Source: SAR92 clade bacterium H231
GTDB lineage: Bacteria > Pseudomonadota > Gammaproteobacteria > Pseudomonadales > Porticoccaceae
DNA length: 64,000 bases
Direction of reading: 5' to 3'
NCBI GenBank assembly: GCA_025153775.1
Contig: JAOALC010000003.1
Location: 434,001 to 498,000 of the forward strand
Made by a program: the position numbers and the translations under genes. Below the pieces are notes generated by a model. The model was not told the DNA's origin. It worked only from the letters and a program-made list of their open reading frames with translations, and ran no database searches. Numbering within the stretch: position 1 is the stretch's first letter; every line of letters begins with the position of its first letter. Below, one piece after another: positions 31,965 to 42,429 of this stretch.

Positions 31965-32660
31965 TCAGGGGTTCTCTGGAGATGAGAAAAAGGATTTGAG
32001 CTGGTTGCCCAGGCTGGTGCAGGCATCATTTTTTACCGGGGTCAGCAATGGTATGGGTGCCACGGCACCGATTAAATAGGAAGTGCCCTCGGAGTCTACC
32101 CGCAGACGGCCCATTTCCTGAAGGTTGGTCATATCCCAGACTATGGCTTCGTAGACAGAGAGTTTGTCCCACTGGGCAAAACCAAAGCAGCCACCGCCGC
32201 CTGGGCCTATGGCACAGCTAATGGAGCCGCCCTGGTCAAGAGTTTCTGTTGAGCCATCGAGCCATACCAGATAGCGCACAGACTGCTGGTCCACCTGGCC
32301 CTTAATCAATGGGTCTTGCATAAGTCTTTTTAGACGCGGCAAGCCTTTGGGTGCGGTGCGCGGCTCAAACCAGGGATAGATGGAGTCTATAAACTGCTGC
32401 TCTGGCACCACGCCAATATCTGCACCTTGCATGCGCTTGGCCACGCAGTTTATAAATTCCCGGTCGGTCTCATAATGGCCTGCATCGCGGCGGCCCAGCA
32501 CCACGACCCGCTCGTCGGCATTGAGGTCAATGGCTTCGCCGCTGGGACGGTACTCATCAATGGTAGTGGTTGCACTGCAGCCAGCTAGAATACTAGCTAG
32601 CACCAATACTGAGCTCAGTTTGGATATAGGGTTAAGGCTGGGTTTAATGGTAGGTTTCAT
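31965..32660 (-). CDS. Lipoprotein of unknown family (operon gene)
   Basis: A 231-residue predicted lipoprotein: N-terminal positively charged region, hydrophobic core and lipobox LASILAGC near residue 28. The mature part includes VVVLGRRDAGHYETDREFIN, CVAKRM and a glycine-rich CAIGPGGGGCFGFAQW loop, with four cysteines that could form disulfides. Residue Asp is not at position +2 (it is Ser), so outer-membrane sorting is expected. I do not recognise a functional family. Its start overlaps the stop of the preceding lipoprotein gene by 4 bases (ATGA), and the M48 gene follows 12 bases on. Confidence 0.7.
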   Translation of the reverse strand: MKPTIKPSLNPISKLSSVLVLASILAGCSATTTIDEYRPSGEAIDLNADERVVVLGRRDAGHYETDREFINCVAKRMQGADIGVVPEQQFIDSIYPWFEPRTAPKGLPRLKRLMQDPLIKGQVDQQSVRYLVWLDGSTETLDQGGSISCAIGPGGGGCFGFAQWDKLSVYEAIVWDMTNLQEMGRLRVDSEGTSYLIGAVAPIPLLTPVKNDACTSLGNQLKSFFSSPENP

Positions 32661-33286
32661 TTTGACTCCTCCAATATCTGCTGTTCCATCATCCAGCCAT
32701 AGATGGCGGGGATGCGGTAGAAGTCGAGCATAAGTTTGGCCCCGGCATCGCGCAGGGCAATAACAGCGGCCTCTTCTATAGCACTGGATTTGGAGGCCAT
32801 AAAGGCGTCTGGCGTTTTGCCATAGGCGGGCATAAACCAGCTGTCGATAGTTTCGCCGTCGACGCTCTTTATCTCCAGATTATATTTAATCCAGACTTCG
32901 AACACATTGAGATAGTTGTCGGAGGGGGTGGACACCTGTACCTCGCGGATGGACGGAATAATAACCAGCTTATGGTCACCACTGACCGCCTCTGGGTCGC
33001 TGACAAATTCCACGTCGTCAAACAGGCCATTAAAGGCATTGCTCAGCAGTTTGACCTGGGCAGTACCCAGGTCGATAACAGTTTTTTTGTTGGGCTGGGC
33101 GATATAGTTGGAGAAGCTCTCATCGAATACTATGCTGGCGGACACCGGTTTCGGCTCTGACAGCACAGTGGGAAAATCGCTGGTAACCTGCACTGAGGCT
33201 GAGGAACTACAACCACTGAGAATACCCACTAGCAGCAGCGCGGCTATGGGTTTTATTGCTGTTTTATTAAATAATTTTTTTAACAT
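32657..33286 (-). CDS. Lipoprotein of unknown family (operon gene)
   Basis: A 209-residue predicted lipoprotein with lipobox VGILSGC near residue 26 and Ser at +2. The mature domain has the pattern VIDLGTAQVKLLSNAFNGLF followed by LVIIPSIREVQVSTP and VFEVWIKYNLEIKSVDGE, reminiscent of small auxiliary lipoproteins of envelope transport systems in which a central beta sheet carries a conserved G-x-A-x-V helix. No enzymatic motif is seen. It lies 13 bases after the second vWA gene and overlaps the next lipoprotein gene by 4 bases, so it is a product of the same transcript and probably an outer-membrane partner of the inner-membrane complex. Confidence 0.7.
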   Translation of the reverse strand: MLKKLFNKTAIKPIAALLLVGILSGCSSSASVQVTSDFPTVLSEPKPVSASIVFDESFSNYIAQPNKKTVIDLGTAQVKLLSNAFNGLFDDVEFVSDPEAVSGDHKLVIIPSIREVQVSTPSDNYLNVFEVWIKYNLEIKSVDGETIDSWFMPAYGKTPDAFMASKSSAIEEAAVIALRDAGAKLMLDFYRIPAIYGWMMEQQILEESK

Positions 33287-33299
33287 AATTTTAATTCCC

Positions 33300-34289
33300 T
33301 TAATTAAGGCTGTTTAAGCCGATAAAGGTTCCTCCATTGTTGTAACTCAGTTCGCGCATCAGGTTGGCAAATTTAATCGCTGATGCGCTGGGGGTGCCTC
33401 CCGGGGGGAAATGCACCGGAAAACCAATGGCGTGAACGCGAACCAGGCGATCACTGCCACGATTGGCCCTGTTAAGTTTATCTACTACCTGTACCACCCG
33501 ACGGATTGAACGGCCCTGAAAGTCATCGCCCAGAGTGTAGATACTGATTTTGCGCCCGGGACGATAGAAGGTGCGAATGGCAGCATTGATGCCTTCCACA
33601 GGGCTGGAGTTACTAAAGGGCGCCCAGTCGGACAGGCGATTGATAATATTTTCTCTGGTTTTGGGACTGTCGGTTATCCAGCTGCCTTTATTGCCGGAGA
33701 ACATATACTGGCCCATATCGTTGAGTACCTGAATACCTTTGACCTCTGGGTAGATATCGAGAATATTGATCATCTCTTTTTTAACTTTTTCCCAGGCCGC
33801 CACCTGCATGCTGCCGGAGGTGTCGATAACAAAAATAATATAGTCGCTGTCGGCTGGAATGCCGCCAATCAGCTGATTTTGCTGTTTAAACTCTGGCCCC
33901 AGCAAGCGTTCCATCTCCTCGGTCAGTACCTGCAGCACCAGCTGTAGCTGTTCTTTCTCTCGGGACTGGGACTGGGACAGCTGATTGGACTGCTTGGCCA
34001 CGCTGGCCAGCTTGGCTTTGAGTCGCGCTATGCGTTCTTGCAGATCGGATAGCTGCTGTTTGCGAGATTTAAGTCGCTCATCCAGCTGCACCGCCTCACC
34101 GCGGATATCGAACAGCCGCTCCTGATACTCTTTTACAGACCCCAGCAATTGTCGCTCTGCCTCTTCCAGAGCTGAGGGGTCTCCCACCTTGGCAATCACC
34201 AGCAGCAGAACTATTGCGCCAAAGCCACAGCTAATAACATCCAAAAAAGACAGGCTGGCCTCTGGTAAGTCGCGGCGTTGTTTTTTCAT
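33300..34289 (-). CDS. vWA protein with TolR/ExbD-like membrane segment (paralogue B)
   Basis: A 329-residue protein in three parts. Residues about 12-33 are a membrane segment with ASLSFLDVISCGFGAIVLLL; Asp17 lies at its start, where TolR, ExbD and MotB carry their proton-binding Asp. Residues about 40-130 form a coiled coil (RLKSRKQQLSDLQERIARLK). Residues about 148-329 are a von Willebrand A domain with the metal site DTSGS at 156-160 and YTLGDDF; the Thr of the MIDAS is not obvious (NSSPVEGINAA), so it may be partly degenerate. The domain should face the periplasm. The start overlaps the stop of the other vWA gene by 4 bases. Confidence 0.82.
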   Translation of the reverse strand: MKKQRRDLPEASLSFLDVISCGFGAIVLLLVIAKVGDPSALEEAERQLLGSVKEYQERLFDIRGEAVQLDERLKSRKQQLSDLQERIARLKAKLASVAKQSNQLSQSQSREKEQLQLVLQVLTEEMERLLGPEFKQQNQLIGGIPADSDYIIFVIDTSGSMQVAAWEKVKKEMINILDIYPEVKGIQVLNDMGQYMFSGNKGSWITDSPKTRENIINRLSDWAPFSNSSPVEGINAAIRTFYRPGRKISIYTLGDDFQGRSIRRVVQVVDKLNRANRGSDRLVRVHAIGFPVHFPPGGTPSASAIKFANLMRELSYNNGGTFIGLNSLN

Positions 34290-35341
34290 GGCCAGTCCCT
34301 CGATGGGGCTATAAAGGCGCCTTTGGTATCCAGGGCAGTCTGCCAGAATAGGGCGGCGGCTTCGGGGTCACCCTCCATGGGGAACAGAATGGTGTTGATT
34401 GGCACACCTTTGGGGAATTCGTCCATGGCGGCATTAAAGTGCTTGCGCCGCTGCTGCCCGGAGACCATATATTTGCTGGGCGGGGTCTTGCCTTGAGTGG
34501 GCAATCCGTCGGTAAGCAGAAAGACGTTATCGGGCCGGTCTTCAAAGTCGGCAATGGCGCCAAAGGCATTGATCAGACTGGTGCCGGCGCCTGGTGAGTA
34601 GTCTCTAATACCGGTAACAGCGCTCTCCAGGGCCAGATCGTCTGCCGCGTCCAGCCATTCGCCCCTAGTGCCTGGAACTGCAGTCTGAATATCAGTATTA
34701 AAAATATACAGCTGAAAGCGGCTGCTGGGAGGCAGCTGGGCCAGCAGCCATTCCAATGTGCGCAATGTCCACTGCCATTTGGGCGACTGTTTTTTCTGCT
34801 CGTCGTCCATATTGCGTCGGCGCACCGCATTGACCACTGTGTCGGCAAGCATGCTGGCGGAGCCATCCACTAAAATAAGTACTCGCTCGCCACCCAGTTT
34901 TAAGCCGGTTAGATACTGGCGGTTGCCATCTCCCTGAAACTCTCGCACCTTGTCGCCAAACTCTACCTCTTCCATCTGTGCGGTTTCATCTTCAAGCTGC
35001 TCCACCTGCCTGCGCAGCTTATCCAGGTCGTTGGGATCGTTCTGAATGCTTTTTTCCTGTTCTTCTAAATCGGTAATCACCCGCTTCGAGAGCCCCTGGG
35101 CTTCGACCAATTCGAGTTTGATTTTTTCCAGACTGTTTAGCAGCTGAACTTTTTCCTCTTCTGCATCGCGGATGTCCATCTGCAGCATATCCACTTCGGC
35201 GGAGATGCGAATATCTGGGGTAATGACCTCTGTTGCATTGTGGCGCAGAATTAAAAACAGCAGTGTCACTGCACCAAAGCCGCAGGCCATAATATCCAGA
35301 AAGGACAGACTGACAGCTATATTGCGACGCTTTTTAGGCAT
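34286..35341 (-). CDS. vWA protein with TolR/ExbD-like membrane segment (paralogue A)
   Basis: A 351-residue protein with the same plan as its downstream neighbour. Residues about 11-32 form a membrane segment with VSLSFLDIMACGFGAVTLLF and Asp16. Residues about 50-130 are a coiled coil (LEKIKLELVEAQGLSKRVI). Residues about 150-345 are a vWA domain with a complete MIDAS: DGSAS at 159-163, Thr in GAGTSLINAFGA and Asp in LLTDGLPTQG. Paralogues A and B share the S-L-S-F-L-D-x-x-x-C-G-F-G-A core but differ elsewhere, so they may form a heterodimer. The gene overlaps the Hsp70-like gene by 8 bases upstream and paralogue B by 4 bases downstream. Confidence 0.84.
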   Translation of the reverse strand: MPKKRRNIAVSLSFLDIMACGFGAVTLLFLILRHNATEVITPDIRISAEVDMLQMDIRDAEEEKVQLLNSLEKIKLELVEAQGLSKRVITDLEEQEKSIQNDPNDLDKLRRQVEQLEDETAQMEEVEFGDKVREFQGDGNRQYLTGLKLGGERVLILVDGSASMLADTVVNAVRRRNMDDEQKKQSPKWQWTLRTLEWLLAQLPPSSRFQLYIFNTDIQTAVPGTRGEWLDAADDLALESAVTGIRDYSPGAGTSLINAFGAIADFEDRPDNVFLLTDGLPTQGKTPPSKYMVSGQQRRKHFNAAMDEFPKGVPINTILFPMEGDPEAAALFWQTALDTKGAFIAPSRDWP

Positions 35342-36596
35342 TGCTGACCTCTATCAGCCGCAGTTTGTGGCCGGCCACTGTCAGGCTGCTCCCTGCCTGG
35401 CAGGTTTTGGGTAGCTGCACCTGCAGATTATCCTGCTGGTGTTGAACCTTAAGCTGGTGATTGGTGACCACAAATACCAGGGCGGCGCGATTATCTATGC
35501 CGGTGACTAGGCTCAGCTGATTGTCTTTAATATGTATGCTGACGGGATGATCCAGTGGATAGCCATGGTTCTGATACAGCAGATGTGTGGCCTGATGAAC
35601 CTTTTTGCTGGCCCCTGCTTTGGATTTGCCGGGGGCCTCTAATTCAGAAATACGGTGCAGTTCTTTGCCTGCCAGTTTGTCCTGCAGATTAAAGCAGTTG
35701 TCTATGCCAGTATTTTGATTGCACAGTCTGGCCTCGGCAAACTGAGACAGCAATGTGGGCAGTAGGCTGGCACTGTGGGAGAAGCAAAGCTCGGCCTTTG
35801 GGTATTTTGCAATAATGGTATGCAGCCCGTTGAGTCGCTGCTCGAACAGCTGGGCAATCTGCTGTTTGCGTAGTACCAGATTAAGCTCACCCTGGGCCGA
35901 GGGCAGGGTGACTGATATCTCATCTTCCCAGCCCAGTTGCATTAGCCACTGGGGCAGCTGGTTGTAGATCAGCTGCTCGCCATCGGAGGTATGCAGTGGG
36001 TCGTAGCGATAGTCAGTAATTAGCTGGTCGCTGATATGGCGGGCGGCAGCATTGTAGAGCTGCATTACGCCCAGGTCGGGGATAACTTCCTGGTCTGCAA
36101 TCTGCAGCTGACCATCGGTTTTGGCAACCCTGGTGACCACCGCCTGCTGAAGTTGCAGTTCAATTAGCAATGACTGGGTCTGCTGGTCTGCACAGCTGGC
36201 TAGGGCGCTGTCGATTACGGCAACAATCTGCACGGGCACAGCACTGGCTAGGCCCAGTAATAATGACAGCTGCTGGTCGGAAAAACTGCCGGGCACACTG
36301 AGGATCAGACTTTCTGGAGAGCCTGCCGCCTGGACCAGCTGTTTTAGCTGGGCAAAGGCGATATCCGCATGATGTCGCGCCCAGCGCTGTTTGCTGGGCA
36401 GTGCTAGCTGATTGAATTGTCGCCAGTACTGGTTGTAACTGTGCTGGGGCTGTTGCCAGGCGACGGCTCGGGCGCTGTCTCCCGTTTCGATACCAGTGGC
36501 GGTTAACTGCGCAAACCCCGGCTCTGAGTGCAGGGTGCCGTCCTCTGTCTGGATAATCAGATTCTGGTCGTTCAGTTCGAGTACGGCAACAGTCAT
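35334..36596 (-). CDS. Degenerate Hsp70/ASKHA-like protein (operon gene)
   Basis: A 420-residue soluble protein whose layout follows the Hsp70/actin ATPase fold. SLILSVPGSFSDQQLSLLLG corresponds to the ITVPAYFNDxQR region, VQIVAVIDSALAS to the helix after it, LLIELQLQQAVVTRV to the phosphate-2 strand, and ELCFSHSASLLPTLLSQF to the adenosine motif near residue 270. The phosphate motifs themselves are degenerate: there is no DLGTTNS-like loop at the N-terminus and no DxGGG. ATP hydrolysis is therefore doubtful. The last 100 residues look like a separate beta domain (VSIHIKDNQLSLV .. LTVAGHKLRLIEV). No signal peptide. It lies 2 bases after the MotA-like gene and overlaps the first vWA gene. Confidence 0.62.
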   Translation of the reverse strand: MTVAVLELNDQNLIIQTEDGTLHSEPGFAQLTATGIETGDSARAVAWQQPQHSYNQYWRQFNQLALPSKQRWARHHADIAFAQLKQLVQAAGSPESLILSVPGSFSDQQLSLLLGLASAVPVQIVAVIDSALASCADQQTQSLLIELQLQQAVVTRVAKTDGQLQIADQEVIPDLGVMQLYNAAARHISDQLITDYRYDPLHTSDGEQLIYNQLPQWLMQLGWEDEISVTLPSAQGELNLVLRKQQIAQLFEQRLNGLHTIIAKYPKAELCFSHSASLLPTLLSQFAEARLCNQNTGIDNCFNLQDKLAGKELHRISELEAPGKSKAGASKKVHQATHLLYQNHGYPLDHPVSIHIKDNQLSLVTGIDNRAALVFVVTNHQLKVQHQQDNLQVQLPKTCQAGSSLTVAGHKLRLIEVSNA

Positions 36597-36598
36597 AA

Positions 36599-37408
36599 TT
36601 ATTTAGCGGCCTTGAGGAATCGCAGCAGCTTATTTTCACAGTAGGCCTGTGAGTCCAGTACCAGCCGCTCTTGAATCAGCTGCAGCTGGTGCATAAAGAA
36701 CATCACCACCATACTGATAAGCAGGGCGATAAAGGTGGAGTTAAAGGCGACACCCAGGCTGCTGGTGACACCGGCAATATTGCCTTCCATGGCCTCATGG
36801 GCCTGACCCAGGGCGGCGCCAATACCCCGCACTGTGCCTATAAAACCTATGGAGGGAATGGCCCAGGTGATATAGCGCACCATGGAGAGCTCTGAATCTA
36901 GGCGATCATTTTCTGTATCGCAGACATTGGTTACGGCCTCGGTGGCGAATTGCACACTGTCGGTCACCTGAAATCTGGTCAGGGCCGTCTGCAGGGCGCG
37001 GGGCAGTAGATAGCTGCGCTGTTCATCGGGCAGCGCCTGCAGTGGCCGAGCCAGCTGGCTGGCATCGTCTGGCAGTACTCGCGAGCCCTCGGCTATGGAC
37101 ATCAGCGGCAGTTCGAGCATATGTTTCTCGCGCATGCTGGTGCGGGTTTTGTAGCCCATAATGGCCAGCGCCCAGAACATCAGAATAAAACAGGACTCCT
37201 GCTCTATATCTTTAACCACAATAAAGAATGACCGCGGCACCACATATTCTTCACCTGCTGCGGCCATCTCGGCATGGCGGCGAATGGTGCTGTCGGCATT
37301 GGGGCGCACCACTGTAACGTAAATAGTGTGGATAATAATTACCGATAGCAGCAGGGCTACTAGCTGGAAAAACATCTCGTTGGTCGCGCGGTGGGTTGGA
37401 CTATTCAT
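36599..37408 (-). CDS. MotA/TolQ/ExbB-type proton channel protein
   Basis: A 269-residue inner-membrane protein. A hydrophobic segment at about 13-33, another near 73-90, and two long ones near 183-205 and 222-245 give the four-helix plan. The family core is visible at about residues 180-250: ITWAIPSIGFIGTVRGIGAA and then GVAFNSTFIALLISMVVMFF, matching the MotA_ExbB domain (the usual xGLLGTVxG). Such proteins form pentamers around two Asp-bearing partners and use the ion gradient. Here the only Asp-bearing single-helix partners nearby are the two vWA proteins. The gene has AGGA 9 bases before its start and is followed 2 bases on by the Hsp70-like gene. Confidence 0.88.
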   Translation of the reverse strand: MNSPTHRATNEMFFQLVALLLSVIIIHTIYVTVVRPNADSTIRRHAEMAAAGEEYVVPRSFFIVVKDIEQESCFILMFWALAIMGYKTRTSMREKHMLELPLMSIAEGSRVLPDDASQLARPLQALPDEQRSYLLPRALQTALTRFQVTDSVQFATEAVTNVCDTENDRLDSELSMVRYITWAIPSIGFIGTVRGIGAALGQAHEAMEGNIAGVTSSLGVAFNSTFIALLISMVVMFFMHQLQLIQERLVLDSQAYCENKLLRFLKAAK

Positions 37409-37433: not shown

Positions 37434-37691
37434 TTAAATATCTGAGGGAAGAGGGACTGGAAAATCTTCGGAAATCTCTTCGCTGGGTTTAAAGTCGCCG
37501 TCTTTGGGACCGCTGTTCTGGTCAGTTTTAGTCTCTTCGGACCTGGCTTTAGTGCTGCTATCTGCCTCGGCAGTCTGAGTCGTGTCAGTTTCGGTGGCTG
37601 CAGTGTTCTGTTCGGGCTGCTGTGCTGCGGCTAGGGTTGGGGCCAATACTAGCAGCATAGCTGTGGTTCTGAGTATCTGTTTGCTATTCAT
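37434..37691 (-). CDS. Small secreted acidic protein of unknown function
   Basis: An 85-residue protein with a clear signal peptide (about residues 1-23, MNSKQILRTTAMLLVLAPTL ending AAA) and a mature part of about 62 residues that is disordered and rich in Glu, Thr, Ser and Asp, ending FPVPLPSDI. No family is recognised. The start overlaps the PEGA/FGE gene's stop by 4 bases and has GGAG 7 bases upstream, so it is deliberately translated in the operon. A spacer, linker or chaperone-like role is possible. Confidence 0.6.
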   Translation of the reverse strand: MNSKQILRTTAMLLVLAPTLAAAQQPEQNTAATETDTTQTAEADSSTKARSEETKTDQNSGPKDGDFKPSEEISEDFPVPLPSDI

Positions 37692-39757
37692 GGCTGAACT
37701 CCGGCCCTATCTACATAGCGGGCGATTCTGAAGCCTACATCCAGTCGTCCATCAGTGCCAGCATCGCGATAGCTGAGGCGCAGCTCGGTGCGTGAACCCA
37801 GGGCCCAGCTGGCACCGCGAATAACATGGCGATTGCCGCTCTTGGGGCCGCGGGGATCCATTATGGGTTCGCCGCGATGGGGCCTGATATCGTAGTAGTC
37901 ATTAACCCATTCGGCCACATTGCCGCTCATATTAAAGAGGCCTTTGGCGTTGGGTTTAAAGCTGCCAATATCTGCGGATACCGGAAAGTTGTCGCTGTAA
38001 TTGGCAATGGTGAAGTTAAGAAACCTGGAGGCACTCTGGTCGGCATAATTGTCCTCAACCTCCAGCGGCGGATACAGGTTGCTGTTCCAGGGGAAAACCA
38101 TGGCATTGCCCGCGCTGTCGATTTTGGCTGCCCAGGCCCACTCCGCCTCTGTGGGCAGGCGATAGCCATGGGAGTCCCAGTCGAAGCCGCTTACTACACC
38201 GTCGGCCACCTGATAGAAAGGCGGCAGCCCTTCCTGACGGCTTAGCCAGTTGCAGTAGAGGGCGGCCTGTTCCCAGGAGATTTTGGCCACTGGTTGGCTG
38301 TTCATATCCAGAGACTGGCCCTTGATGGCGGTGGAACTGTGCTCCTGCCAGCGACGAAACTGCATATTACTGATTTCTTTAACCCCTAGATAAAAAGGTC
38401 GCTCTAATCCCACTTTACGCTCTGCTTCATTGGCGCGACGCCCAGGCTGACGACGGGGGGCACCCAGGGTGAAGGTCTGTTTGGGTCGGAACAGTTTTAG
38501 TTCTGAGCCTAGAGTACTTTTAATACGCGGTGGCCGGGAGGCCCAGTAGGCATCTTCTAGGGTCAGCAGTGCAATGCTCAGCGCCTGTTGATGACCTGGC
38601 CTCGGAGTGACGGTAAGAGACTTGGGTTCATAACCGGCTTTTTGGATAGTCAATGTATGGGGTTTGGCATTGAGCGACAGGGTCCGGCTGCCGGTGCCTC
38701 TGGGCTGATTATCTACCAGTATCTGGGCATCCCCTGGGCTGACAGTTAGGGCTATGCTGCCAATATTGGGCTTGAGACTGACCTCCATCTGGGTGGTGGC
38801 CTCGGGCTCCAGGCTAGCGGATCTGGTGGCCTTGAGATAACCTTCGAGAAACAGTTCTACGCGGTATTTTTTAAATGGCGCCATGGCCAACTCCAGGGGA
38901 GTGGTGCCGAGAAACTGATTGTCTATGGTCACATTGGCCCCTGAGGGTGTGCTGTTAACCTGCAGTGTGCCGTCGGATAGGATCAGCTTTATGGTTGGGT
39001 GCTCGTCGCTGGTTCCGGCGTTAACTGTAACCTGCTGGTTAAAGGTTTTGTAACCACTGAGCTCCAGGCGCAGATCACTACCAGTTTCCAGCACCTCTGT
39101 GGTTAGCGGTGTCTGGCCGATCAGGCGGTCATCTATATACAGGTCTGCACCCTGGGGCTGAGAATTAAATTGCTTTTCACCCCAGGCCGGCAGCAGGGAA
39201 ATATTGATTGACTGGGTGGTACCCAGGCCTGCGATATCAATCTCCTGTTGCAGGGGGAAGTAGCGGTATTTACTGAATTCAATCTGGTGAAGACCGCGGC
39301 TAATGCCCTCGATAGTGCCTGGCACCTCTCCTCTGGGCTCGCCATCTACAGAGCTCGCTATGCCGTTTATTTCAGAGCTGACCATAAGATTGCCGGGCAG
39401 AGGTTGCAGCACCAGCTTTAATTCCTGGGTGGCCTCGTCGCTTACGCTGATGGTTTGATTGAGGGGATAGTAGCCCTGGGCACTGGCCTGGATGCTGTAG
39501 TCGCCGCTGAGCAGCAGATAGTTGTCGCCTATATTAAATGATAGGCCGCCGATCTCGATCTCGGCATTCTCTGGCTCGGTCTGGAAGATCACCGCGCGGG
39601 CCACAAACAGATAGAGCAGAATAATCACCGCACTGGTGGCCAGCAGTGCCAGCGCCAATACCCCTGGGGATATGGGCAGGCTGCGCTCTGTGCCTGCCGC
39701 ATCTATGGGCTGGAAGTCGGTGGCTGATAGGGGTTGGTTATTATTTTTATCGGGCAT
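37688..39757 (-). CDS. PEGA-repeat protein with C-terminal FGE/sulfatase-modifying-like domain
   Basis: A 689-residue protein. A short cytoplasmic N-terminus is followed by one membrane segment (about 30-55, VLALALLATSAVIILLYLF). Then come about five PEGA-type beta repeats (about 70-415), for example QPQGADLYIDDRLIGQTPL, TPSGANVTIDNQFLGTTPL and SPGDAQILVDNQPRGTGS. Residues about 440-685 are an FGE-sulfatase domain: KISWEQAALYCNWLSRQEG, GYRLPTEAEWAWAAK, LFNMSGNVAEWVNDYY, VIRGASWALGSR, DVGFRIAR. The two active-site Cys of real formylglycine-generating enzymes (in the GGSYMCHRSYC-type segment) are absent, so it is more likely a binding or scaffold domain. PEGA repeats often bind surface polymers. 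Its start lies 6 bases after the previous gene. Confidence 0.86.
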   Translation of the reverse strand: MPDKNNNQPLSATDFQPIDAAGTERSLPISPGVLALALLATSAVIILLYLFVARAVIFQTEPENAEIEIGGLSFNIGDNYLLLSGDYSIQASAQGYYPLNQTISVSDEATQELKLVLQPLPGNLMVSSEINGIASSVDGEPRGEVPGTIEGISRGLHQIEFSKYRYFPLQQEIDIAGLGTTQSINISLLPAWGEKQFNSQPQGADLYIDDRLIGQTPLTTEVLETGSDLRLELSGYKTFNQQVTVNAGTSDEHPTIKLILSDGTLQVNSTPSGANVTIDNQFLGTTPLELAMAPFKKYRVELFLEGYLKATRSASLEPEATTQMEVSLKPNIGSIALTVSPGDAQILVDNQPRGTGSRTLSLNAKPHTLTIQKAGYEPKSLTVTPRPGHQQALSIALLTLEDAYWASRPPRIKSTLGSELKLFRPKQTFTLGAPRRQPGRRANEAERKVGLERPFYLGVKEISNMQFRRWQEHSSTAIKGQSLDMNSQPVAKISWEQAALYCNWLSRQEGLPPFYQVADGVVSGFDWDSHGYRLPTEAEWAWAAKIDSAGNAMVFPWNSNLYPPLEVEDNYADQSASRFLNFTIANYSDNFPVSADIGSFKPNAKGLFNMSGNVAEWVNDYYDIRPHRGEPIMDPRGPKSGNRHVIRGASWALGSRTELRLSYRDAGTDGRLDVGFRIARYVDRAGVQP

Positions 39758-39763
39758 AATGGC

Positions 39764-41188
39764 TTAAATCATCTCGTCGCAGCTTACTCTGATTGGCCCT
39801 TTGATAGGGGCACCAGTAATGGTGAATTCAACACGCACATCTCGGTAACCCATGCGTGTACCAGCCGCTATGTAACGACCCGGCTTTAACTGCAGAGATG
39901 TCTGCTCAAAGGCTCCCAGCTTGGCGATACGGAATAATGTAACCTGGGTTTGGTTATTGGATTGCAGCACCACATCGACTGCTGTGGTGGACTGTTGCAG
40001 TGCTTTATTCAGGTCGGCGATTTGCTGCGTTAGTAGAGGCCCTGGGTTGGCGATGCCTGAGGCATCTGCTAATAGCCGCTGGGCGCTGTTGTACTGGCTG
40101 GAGGAAGACAGTTTTAAGGGGTCGGCCAGCACGGCTTGAATCTGATTATCTAATTTGGCTCTGACAGCTACTGGAATGGTTTTTACTCTGGCCTCTGTCA
40201 ATGAGGGATCGGTTTGCAGCAGCGACTGGTAGAGCTCGAGTGCCTGCTGCCATTGCTCGCGGTCTTCGAACTCGGCGGCCTGCAACATCTGACGACTGAC
40301 CAGTATCTGTGACTGTTTGGTGGCTACCTGCGATAGGGCCTGAGCCACGGCTGGGTGGTTGCTGTAGATTTTTGCTGCGCGATTAAAGGCGTTGGTGGCC
40401 GCTGCAAATTGATTGCTGTCGAGAGCGGCAAAGCCGTCGCTCATATGGCCGCGAAAACGCTGCTCAGTAATGGCCTGATTTGCAGACTGCAGCTCTGCTG
40501 CAGCCTTAATATGTAGACCGTCGATACTAACTGCCTGCTCAAAATAGGCTTTGGCTGCGGCCAGCTCGTTGGTTTGCAGCCGTTGCCGGCCATTGTTCAG
40601 AGCTGCGATCAGAGTCTCCAGCTGCCCGGCGCGCTGGGCCAGTTGCTGAGACCTGCGGTCTTCTGGGGCTATGGCCATTGCGGTAGCGGCGGCTTCTGTG
40701 GCTGGGGCAATATCTGCCAGCTCGGCATTTTCTATGGCATTGATACCATCGCGAAGGGCGGTCTCCAGGGTTGTCTGGCCGCTGATCTCAAGGGCCTGTA
40801 GCTGTTTTAGCGAACTCTGGTAGCTGGCCTGGGCATCTCGGTAATCCCCATAGCCATATTGTTCATCACCCTGGTCGATTAGTGCCAGGGCCTGACGGAA
40901 TTCAAAATCGCCCCAGTACTCGACATTCTGCTGTTTGAGACTGTCGCGGACGGCGATAATCTGGGCTAGCACCTTCTGTGAATCTTGGCGGTACTTGGTT
41001 TTTTCTGCAGCTGTGGATGGGCTGACGGCAGTTTTTGCCGGGACTGGGGTGGCGGATTCATCGGCGGTTGCAATCCAGGGGTCGGAGACCATATTGGGCA
41101 GCAGCAAGACCACAGCGACTACCAGTAGCAGTAAGCCGCCGATAATCAATTTTTGTCTGCCTTCCTGTTGGCCTGGTCTGCTGGTCAT
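39764..41188 (-). CDS. Single-pass periplasmic TPR/coiled-coil protein (operon gene)
   Basis: A 474-residue protein with 11 cytoplasmic residues, one membrane segment (about 13-31, LIIGGLLLLVVAVVLLLP) and a large helical periplasmic part. Repeated patterns such as ALIDQGDEQYGYGDYRDAQA, LAAAKAYFEQAVSIDGLHI, FAAATNAFNRAAKIYSNHP and EQWQQALELYQSLLQTDPS indicate TPR-like repeats spaced through residues about 70-360. The last 80 residues form a small beta domain (VTLFRIAKLGAFEQTSLQLK .. GPIRVSCDEMI). No enzyme motif. It is likely a periplasmic scaffold. The ATG overlaps the preceding stop by one base (TAATG). Confidence 0.7.
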   Translation of the reverse strand: MTSRPGQQEGRQKLIIGGLLLLVVAVVLLLPNMVSDPWIATADESATPVPAKTAVSPSTAAEKTKYRQDSQKVLAQIIAVRDSLKQQNVEYWGDFEFRQALALIDQGDEQYGYGDYRDAQASYQSSLKQLQALEISGQTTLETALRDGINAIENAELADIAPATEAAATAMAIAPEDRRSQQLAQRAGQLETLIAALNNGRQRLQTNELAAAKAYFEQAVSIDGLHIKAAAELQSANQAITEQRFRGHMSDGFAALDSNQFAAATNAFNRAAKIYSNHPAVAQALSQVATKQSQILVSRQMLQAAEFEDREQWQQALELYQSLLQTDPSLTEARVKTIPVAVRAKLDNQIQAVLADPLKLSSSSQYNSAQRLLADASGIANPGPLLTQQIADLNKALQQSTTAVDVVLQSNNQTQVTLFRIAKLGAFEQTSLQLKPGRYIAAGTRMGYRDVRVEFTITGAPIKGPIRVSCDEMI

Positions 41189-42429
41189 TACAATGTCCCG
41201 CGCTCTTGCTTGTAGATTTTATGCAGCAGCTCCTGCCACTGTTGATACTGTGCTTGCACTGTGCCGGTGAGGGTGACAGTGCGGTCCTCCAGTTCGATAA
41301 CCTGGGGGGCAATTTCTGCCTCCAGTGAGGAACCCATTTCGGCCACGGATTCGTTGTACGCCGCGGCTTCCTGTTTTTTCTCCAGACCAGATTTCAATAC
41401 AAAGCCACCCACTGCGGCAGTGGCGGTGCTGGCATCATTAACCATTCTGGTCTCGGCCTGGGAGCGGCCGTAGATGCCGGCAAGAATAGCTCCTATGCCG
41501 GCAACAATACGACGGTTACCCTGCTTTTCCAGCTGTCTGGCCTTGACTACCGAGTCGTAGGAAGAGCGGCGAAAATCTTGGTAGGCCATATGCATCTGCT
41601 GGGAAAAACCATCGTAGTAATCCTGCATGGTGTCTATGTATAGATAGTCGCGATCGCGGATTTTGCGCACCCGCATCAGAATGCTGTCGTTCTCTGCCGG
41701 CAGGCGATCTATTTTTAAGGTGCCATCGCGGCGTTCGCTCACATAGCTATCAAAGGCTTCAGGCGAAAAGGACTTGGCAAAGCGCAGCTCTGAGATGGTG
41801 CGCAGCTCTATGGCCTGCTGCTCGCTGAGTTTTTCGCGGTAGGCCAGCAGATCGTTGGCGATGCGAATAAACAGGTTCTGGAATGGATCGCCCAGTCTTT
41901 TCAGGCGGCGGTCGTAGGCGTATTTGCCTGTGGTCTGTTTGTAGTTCTTGGCGAACCACTGTTTGCCGCTACTGTCTCTGACCTGTATATCTAGATCCAT
42001 GGTTTCGCCATCGGACTGCAGTATGGTCCCGGTGATATACAGATCCATAATCACGCTGTCGGTGGGAGTGACGCGAATAGCGCCCCAGGCACCGCTTTTC
42101 TCCATAACTTTGGCCAGCTGATTGGAGAAATAAATGGCCTCGGCGTAGCGCACCTCGGGAAATACAGTGTCACTTTCGTCGGTGAGGTACAGTCCATCGT
42201 TGAGGGTGGGAATGCCTACATCTAACAGTGCAGCATCGGAAATCTGCTGGCTGGGGGTGCGCAGGGTGAGAGCGGTGGACGAGGTAATCTTATCTGTGGC
42301 AGCTACAGCCGGAGGTGCAGTGATTGCCAGTACAGCGACACAGGCAAACAGAGTTGCCGCAATCAGTTTGCGCTGAATCTGATTGGCTCGATTAGTCTCT
42401 GCAATGCTGGTTTTCATAATCCTGTCCAT
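41188..42429 (-). CDS. Secreted protein of unknown family (operon gene)
   Basis: A 413-residue protein with an N-terminal hydrophobic export signal (about residues 22-45, ending PPAVAATDK). Residues about 60-190 form a beta-rich domain (YAEAIYFSNQLAKVMEKSG, VTPTDSVIMDLYITGTILQS DG-type strands, IQVRDSSGKQWFAKNYK), reminiscent of lipoproteins that sit with envelope transporters, but I cannot name it. A glycine-containing hydrophobic hairpin lies near 300-340 (IVAGIGAILAGIYG, AAVGGFVLKSG), which could insert in a membrane. The C-terminus is helical. The start could be ATG 42429 or 42417. It overlaps the next gene by one base. Confidence 0.65.
   Translation of the reverse strand: MDRIMKTSIAETNRANQIQRKLIAATLFACVAVLAITAPPAVAATDKITSSTALTLRTPSQQISDAALLDVGIPTLNDGLYLTDESDTVFPEVRYAEAIYFSNQLAKVMEKSGAWGAIRVTPTDSVIMDLYITGTILQSDGETMDLDIQVRDSSGKQWFAKNYKQTTGKYAYDRRLKRLGDPFQNLFIRIANDLLAYREKLSEQQAIELRTISELRFAKSFSPEAFDSYVSERRDGTLKIDRLPAENDSILMRVRKIRDRDYLYIDTMQDYYDGFSQQMHMAYQDFRRSSYDSVVKARQLEKQGNRRIVAGIGAILAGIYGRSQAETRMVNDASTATAAVGGFVLKSGLEKKQEAAAYNESVAEMGSSLEAEIAPQVIELEDRTVTLTGTVQAQYQQWQELLHKIYKQERGTL

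Follow-up and report, generated by a model that had tools for sequence, protein, structure and literature searches.

A MotA/TolQ-type channel and two different von Willebrand factor A proteins as candidate partners in one ion-driven motor of a SAR92 clade bacterium

Can an ion-driven motor of the 5:2 type, with five channel subunits surrounding two partner helices, be built on two partners that are different proteins? This question is raised by a locus of SAR92 clade bacterium H231 (GCA_025153775.1, contig JAOALC010000003.1) in which two adjoining genes encode proteins with a von Willebrand factor A (vWA) domain, here vWA1 and vWA2, close to the gene for a channel subunit of the MotA/TolQ/ExbB type. 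The window, that is, the whole stretch of DNA analysed, comprises 64,000 nucleotides (positions 434,001 to 498,000 of the contig). Both vWA proteins are very probably axle partners of the MotA-like channel, as the initial annotation of this DNA proposed, because an Asp in their N-terminal helices and two Thr residues of the channel are kept throughout, no TolR/ExbD was found at the loci, and the synteny is tight. Whether the two partners meet in the same ring is less certain; a mixed 5:1:1 axle, in which each ring holds a single copy of each protein, is slightly favoured. The central features of the locus are as follows.

36599..37408, minus strand: MotA/TolQ/ExbB-type channel subunit, 269 amino acids (PF01618, E 1e-13, above the cut-off)
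35334..36596, minus strand: protein of 420 amino acids with the fold of an Hsp70 nucleotide-binding domain (NBD), between the channel and the vWA proteins (AlphaFold2 and Foldseek)
34286..35341, minus strand: vWA1, 351 amino acids, with a basic N-terminus, a hydrophobic helix carrying Asp16, a coiled coil and a vWA domain
35243..35308, minus strand: putative transpore helix of vWA1, residues 12-33 (Asp16 codon 35294-35296)
33300..34289, minus strand: vWA2, 329 amino acids, with a basic N-terminus, a hydrophobic helix carrying Asp17, a coiled coil and a vWA domain
34188..34253, minus strand: putative transpore helix of vWA2, residues 13-34 (Asp17 codon 34239-34241)
34286..34289, minus strand: ATGA overlap of the vWA1 stop and the vWA2 start

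The N-terminus of vWA1 is MPKKRRNIAVSLSFLDIMACGFGAVTLLFLILRH and that of vWA2 is MKKQRRDLPEASLSFLDVISCGFGAIVLLLVIAKV, the residues in question being D16 and D17, respectively. The common motif SLSFLDxxxCGFGA pointed out in the initial annotation is present in both proteins (SLSFLD-IMA-CGFGA in vWA1 and SLSFLD-VIS-CGFGA in vWA2) and lies within a hydrophobic segment that follows the basic N-terminus (residues 14-32 and 15-33, respectively, in a crude hydropathy scan that also marks a marginal segment within the vWA domain of vWA1). The coiled coil and vWA domain said to follow the helix are borne out as well, for vWA2 by a predicted model and, as regards the vWA domain, for vWA1 by Pfam matches. 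The model of vWA2 contains a helix at residues 38-130 and then a vWA fold that matches solved vWA domains, with predicted local distance difference test (pLDDT) values mostly of 77 to 93 between residues 151 and 290. The predicted vWA domain of vWA1 matches VWA_3 below the Pfam cut-off in the window copy (E 6e-5) and VWA_2 in 28 of the 31 aligned members of the family. The profiles of vWA1 and vWA2 match each other in their N-terminal parts (E 7e-24) and as a whole (E 9e-26), so that the two proteins are related over their full length. Sequence searches of solved structures with both vWA profiles return mostly coiled-coil matches, and a plasmid search gave no match.

The position of the Asp near the cytoplasmic start of an N-terminal helix and the assignment of the channel to PF01618 are features shared with TolQR, ExbBD and MotAB. 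The difference is that, among the matches listed, vWA1 and vWA2 have none to ExbD/TolR (PF02472, E up to 1), to the MotB plug (PF13677) or to OmpA (PF00691), and possess a coiled coil and a vWA domain instead. Nor is there a listed match of the vWA proteins to ZorB at E up to 1, and the channel differs from that of the Zorya ZorAB system, reaching only 13 bits to ZorA2 (E 0.009).

A search with vWA1 identifies matches in 32 of the 145 genomes of the order (in G006 only weakly), whereas profile searches at the class and phylum levels match 40 of 369 genomes (31 with an E of at most 1e-30) and 26 of 398 genomes (15 strongly), respectively, the source genome being counted in each case. The 81 loci compared comprise 10 from named close relatives (Porticoccaceae, SAR92 clade, HTCC2207, Cellvibrionales or Pseudomonadales), 31 from the order, and 20 plus 20 from the wider searches; one of the 15 strong phylum genomes, G712, was left out of the wider stretches, and L212 and L214 were left out of the 81, their vWA1 lying at a contig end with vWA2 out of view. 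Both vWA genes are present in 80 of the 81 loci, on the same strand and always with vWA1 first; the exception is L169, whose shortened vWA1 frame is followed by 69 bases of contig. When starts are assigned by rule, the two genes overlap by exactly 4 bases in 58 of these 80 loci and overlap or lie within 20 bases of each other in 73. The ExbD/TolR profile detects over all 81 loci a single marginal open reading frame (ORF; E 0.0035), which is itself a vWA1 frame.

The Asp is found in 81 of 81 vWA2 rows and in 74 of 82 vWA1 rows, the window row included, the other eight vWA1 rows being gaps. Seven of these gaps, along with three frames that start one codon before the Asp, all come from one family, and all ten frames encode FLDIM once read further upstream; the eighth gap is L168, where vWA1 is broken. 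For the comparison of the two proteins, 77 rows were kept, that is, the 82 vWA1 rows minus L070, L102 and L118 (whose stretches lack a channel copy) and L168 and L169 (broken or cut), and the Asp is present in 77 of 77 rows for vWA1 and for vWA2 alike, as expected from the initial annotation. The vWA1 frame of L168 is split by in-frame stops and a vWA2 stretch of 233 amino acids is open; this may be a decayed copy or an assembly error. In L150 and L152-L160, from another class of the phylum, no in-frame ATG, GTG or TTG precedes the helix of vWA1, and CTG followed by AAA or AGA occurs at the same place in all ten frames; L151, a member of that group, shares this CTG and has a later ATG that still precedes the Asp. 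This CTG is a putative conserved start of vWA1, which perhaps damps its translation.

On the side of the channel, Thr192 and Thr225 are present in 79 of 79 rows. T225 is located inside a clear hydrophobic segment, and T192 in a conserved IPSIGFIGTVRGI stretch that the crude scan leaves unmarked. At the level of sequence, the conserved Asp in the partner helix and the conserved Thr in the channel are a likeness to the ion-driven rotary motors of the 5:2 type. The channel gene is present in 78 of the 81 loci; it is missing from the truncated stretches of L070 and L102, and in the L118 genome it lies on another contig. Its placement three genes upstream, given in the initial annotation, is correct for vWA2, and for vWA1 it is two genes upstream. 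In L117 (13719-15614) and L119 (10902-12727), to which L118 is related, the channel gene comes after vWA2, not before it. A fusion of vWA2 with the channel, suspected in L118, proved to be merely an upstream extension of the frame.

The heterodimer is favoured by four observations, namely, near-universal coupled pairing, separate clades, differences beside the Asp, and co-varying distances. The vWA1 and vWA2 proteins fall into separate clades, each holding 77 of 77 rows (support 0.74 and 0.99 with a single-partner protein as the outgroup), and the residue at Asp+2 is Met in 73 of 77 vWA1 rows and Ile or Val in 75 of 77 vWA2 rows; given these separate clades and steady differences beside the Asp, the two do not look interchangeable. 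The distances from the Asp to the metal ion-dependent adhesion site (MIDAS) co-vary between the two proteins (contrast r 0.57 over 76 contrasts, with 0 of 10,000 permutations as high). An obligately mixed axle, perhaps derived from a single-partner ancestor and carrying two different periplasmic load-bearing heads with asymmetry within each turn, is a stronger claim on which the balance is even.

Several results weigh against a mixed axle or against parts of it. The membrane helix of vWA2 is unsupported by the model because pLDDT is 35-44 over residues 1-40. The crude scan gives only two clear hydrophobic segments in the window channel (16-34 and 220-238) and from 1 to 5 in each of its relatives, which does not define the topology of the channel. 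The comparison of the N-terminal profiles with ExbD and MotB suggested by the initial annotation gave no match beyond chance: 6 of 100 helix-shuffled controls equalled the score against ExbD for each protein over 36 columns, and the comparison with MotB is weaker still (E 0.18 and 0.3), although ExbD versus MotB is itself a weak match in this comparison (E 0.006). The length correlation falls to 0.43, 0.27 and 0.17 without the one, three and five strongest of the 76 contrasts; seven of its eight control pairs stay at 0.09 or less in size and one reaches r 0.39; and the agreement in sign (26 of 37) does not exceed what a control comparison, that of the two vWA C-terminal lengths, yields (28 of 40). 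The charges of the coiled coils show no complementarity over 69 loci (rho +0.27, means -7.8 and -4.0; 12 vWA1 rows were unmeasurable), and no convincing helix-helix site pairs between vWA1 and vWA2 were detected. Finally, most of the evidence is also compatible with two homodimeric motors that use one channel gene.

Some candidate signals were rejected in the course of the analysis. Homology of the helix to ExbD, TolR or MotB is inseparable from chance on 36 columns. The coiled-coil charges of the window pair (-14 and -1) looked complementary, a pattern that does not recur over the 69 loci. The residues at Asp+4 of vWA1 and vWA2 are Cys/Cys in 69, Ser/Ser in 7 and Gly/Cys in 1 of the 77 rows; all seven Ser pairs belong to one family, so that this co-change looks like one event; gene conversion between the tandem genes would be another explanation.

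The alternative that survives best, though it is a doubtful one, is that of two homodimeric motors sharing one channel, in which five channel subunits would combine with two vWA1 in one motor and with two vWA2 in the other, the two motors having different periplasmic targets. It agrees with the non-complementary charges and with a precedent from Aquifex aeolicus, whose MotA makes E. coli slightly motile when combined with a MotB1 chimera or with a MotB2 chimera (passages of PMC4525482). It is also compatible with the existence of relatives with a single partner, which suggest that channels of this family can function with partners of only one type. One such locus (L211, 6122-10750) combines a channel relative (PF01618, E 5e-10) with a single vWA protein (VWA_3, E 1e-12) that carries INIFSMSALDLFASAMGAF; also encoded there are an FHA protein, a PP2C phosphatase and a trypsin-FHA protein. 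Another (L247, 2494-11952) likewise has a channel relative (E 2e-12) and a single vWA protein with a similar helix (VWA_2, 26.7 bits, cut-off 27), accompanied by one FHA protein, a PP2C phosphatase, two trypsin-FHA proteins and a kinase with a PEGA domain. In L213 (5563-10174), a trypsin-FHA protein and a kinase flank a protein that has one Asp helix and no Pfam match, and in L246 a similar helix is present by the listed N-terminus; in the respective genomes, G175 and G412, the channel relative is on another contig. No second Asp helix was seen in these loci in a limited search with one motif pattern and a profile, and they are a natural single-partner comparison for the window locus. Against two homodimeric motors stand the near-universal pairing of vWA1 and vWA2, whose genes overlap or adjoin, the weak co-variation of their stalk lengths, and the steady differences between them, where the N-terminal and helix regions of the two Aquifex partners are reported to be 97% identical.

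It is improbable that one vWA protein forms the axle and the other lies beside the ring, in the manner of TolA or TonB, or belongs to a second complex. Another family of vWA proteins that binds at the side of the ring has been described (passages of PMC12204202), but that family has an SHLS motif, which by eye neither window protein shows, and the Asp and the same helix motif are present in vWA1 and vWA2 with like constancy. Highly improbable is a third alternative, that the Asp helix is a mere membrane anchor and the vWA proteins regulate a channel that has a different partner, for instance an ExbD from another locus of the genome: this genome does have an ExbD (L205, 6928-7347) with no channel gene in the adjoining stretch, but it adjoins a gene that by eye resembles a TonB-dependent receptor, and an invariant Asp in a hydrophobic helix is unexpected for a mere anchor.

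The initial annotation also assigned a full MIDAS to one vWA protein and an incomplete one to the other, which the alignments do not support. The MIDAS positions of vWA1 are D159, S161, S163, T254 and D278, kept in 80, 81, 81, 74 (Ser in 4 more) and 81 of the 82 rows, respectively; those of vWA2 are D156, S158, S160, S228 and D255, each kept in all 81 rows save S228, which is kept in 80. In the profile alignment, T254 of vWA1 pairs with S228 of vWA2, and D278 with D255. All five ligand positions are thus retained in vWA2, with Ser replacing Thr, and because a serine can supply the same hydroxyl as a threonine, this is a predicted variant site, not an incomplete one.

For the mixed axle, we infer the stoichiometry, ion, rotation, topology and target of an ion-driven, inner-membrane motor of the 5:2 type. 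Five copies of the MotA/TolQ-like protein would form the ring, and its pore would hold an axle made of two N-terminal helices, one from vWA1 and the other from vWA2. D16 and D17 would alternately bind an ion, probably H+, near Thr192 and Thr225 of the ring, each step rotating the ring relative to the axle. The two coiled coils may form a joint stalk that carries two unlike vWA domains into the periplasm, and MIDAS-type contacts there would transmit force to partners in the envelope, the candidates being a protein with PEGA repeats and an FGE-sulfatase domain (PEGA-FGE protein) and lipoproteins encoded nearby.

The protein encoded between the channel and vWA1 (35334-36596) has no Pfam match of its own and no useful sequence match to solved structures; its fold did find a match. 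The AlphaFold2 model (mean pLDDT 91.6) identifies DnaK as the best Foldseek hit (E 7e-17), with a TMt of 0.74 to one NBD. Among 31 aligned members of the family, two match FHA and one matches HSP70. By eye the protein lacks the usual Gly-rich phosphate motifs, and its nucleotide motifs look degenerate. The crude scan marks a hydrophobic stretch in this protein and in 10 of 40 family members; in the model, this stretch belongs to the folded domain. The protein is predicted to be a pseudo-ATPase, probably on the cytoplasmic side.

These genes belong to a longer row on the minus strand, which starts with a TPR-like protein, a Gly-rich protein, a conserved protein without a Pfam match and a second TPR-like protein, continues with the PEGA-FGE protein, a small ORF, the channel and the protein of 420 amino acids, and ends with vWA1, vWA2, two putative lipoproteins and an M48 peptidase. 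The labels of the M48 peptidase, of the one-partner loci and of a MotA-MotB-MotB locus described below were confirmed with Pfam. The other features of the row are these.

41188..42429, minus strand: conserved protein with an N-terminal hydrophobic segment and without a Pfam match
39764..41188, minus strand: TPR-like protein (TPR_2, E 1e-4, 22.4 bits, below the cut-off of 27), with an N-terminal hydrophobic segment at residues 14-32
37688..39757, minus strand: PEGA repeats and FGE-sulfatase (SUMF1-like) domain (PF08308, E 2e-49; PF03781, E 5e-34), with an N-terminal hydrophobic segment at residues 33-51
37434..37691, minus strand: small ORF, 85 amino acids, low-complexity, with a signal-like start by eye
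32657..33286, minus strand: LipA, putative lipoprotein (Cys26 invariant in 26 aligned sequences)
31965..32660, minus strand: LipB, putative lipoprotein (Cys28 invariant in 24 aligned sequences)

Because contig ends truncate many loci, the presence of these neighbours among the 81 loci is given as lower bounds: at least 69 for the PEGA-FGE protein, 65 for the TPR-like protein 39764..41188, 57 for the Hsp70-like protein, 50 for LipA, 50 for the conserved protein 41188..42429, 45 for LipB and 33 for the M48 peptidase. An FGE-type protein encoded together with an ion-driven motor recalls GldK of the GldKLM gliding and type IX secretion system. The PEGA-FGE protein does match GldK with E 1e-24, but with 87 bits against a cut-off of 350, and no match to GldL or GldM is listed among the ten window proteins scanned.

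The genome of H231 encodes five PF01618 channels, three ExbD/TolR and two MotB proteins, and all five of these ExbD/TolR and MotB genes lie away from the vWA locus; MotB was sought in this genome only, and both plug hits are its two MotB genes. The lone ExbD of L205 (contig C3, about 14.9 kb) is without a neighbouring channel gene. In L206 (5044-7946; contig C2, about 679043-681945), one MotA is followed by two tandem MotB genes, both with plug and OmpA domains, whose listed frames overlap if the second starts at TTG. Among genomes of the same genus, 12 of 23 have MotB_plug hits and, by eye, 12 of these 12 have a close pair on one contig; in the 13 other genomes of the same search, no close MotB_plug pair was seen by eye.

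The pattern found at the window locus is already in print as a prediction. Section 8 and other passages of PMC12204202 (Mol Biol Evol 2025, msaf138) describe, with AlphaFold 3 models, vWA proteins that have a TolR-like transpore helix with an Asp, whose genes are tightly linked to tolQ-like genes without tolR and occur predominantly as heterologous pairs; the vWA pair, exemplified from Idiomarina, is proposed as the dimeric partner inside the pentamer. Judged by its gene content, with the Idiomarina proteins compared by their description, the locus is therefore a member of this kind, sharing with it a PF01618 channel, a heterologous pair of vWA proteins with an Asp helix, and no ExbD/TolR found at the loci. 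The same section and passages contain no discussion of differences in MIDAS, of a neighbour with an Hsp70 fold or of one-partner relatives.

The statement of the initial annotation that known motors use two identical partners was too general, since one channel with two partner genes is also known in other systems. The AglR-AglQ-AglS gliding motor of Myxococcus has one channel gene and two different partner genes with an Asp helix; whether AglQ and AglS form hetero- or homodimers is called open in passages of PMC9389320. The difference is that AglQ and AglS match ExbD/TolR (PF02472; passages of PMC3169522), and vWA1 and vWA2 do not. The MotA/MotB1/MotB2 stator of A. aeolicus likewise has one channel and two partner genes in an operon (passages of PMC4525482), but MotB1 and MotB2 possess OmpA-like domains, and MotA supported some motility with either chimeric partner by itself. 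The published literature (preprints being outside the scope) showed no experiment on a mixed axle in the titles and beginnings of abstracts of the entries listed, or in passages of PMC3169522, PMC12505986, PMC12905483 and PMC8986121.

New to this picture are the one-partner relatives, the Hsp70-fold protein between the channel and its partners, and a second locus with one channel and two partners, MotA and two MotB, in the same genome. Because the partners differ around the Asp over 77 rows, are coupled at the gene level and have one-partner relatives for comparison, the locus is a good test case for a 5:2 motor on two different axle proteins. If the axle is indeed mixed, either Asp could be switched off on its own, which would make the half-steps within a turn of the motor separable.

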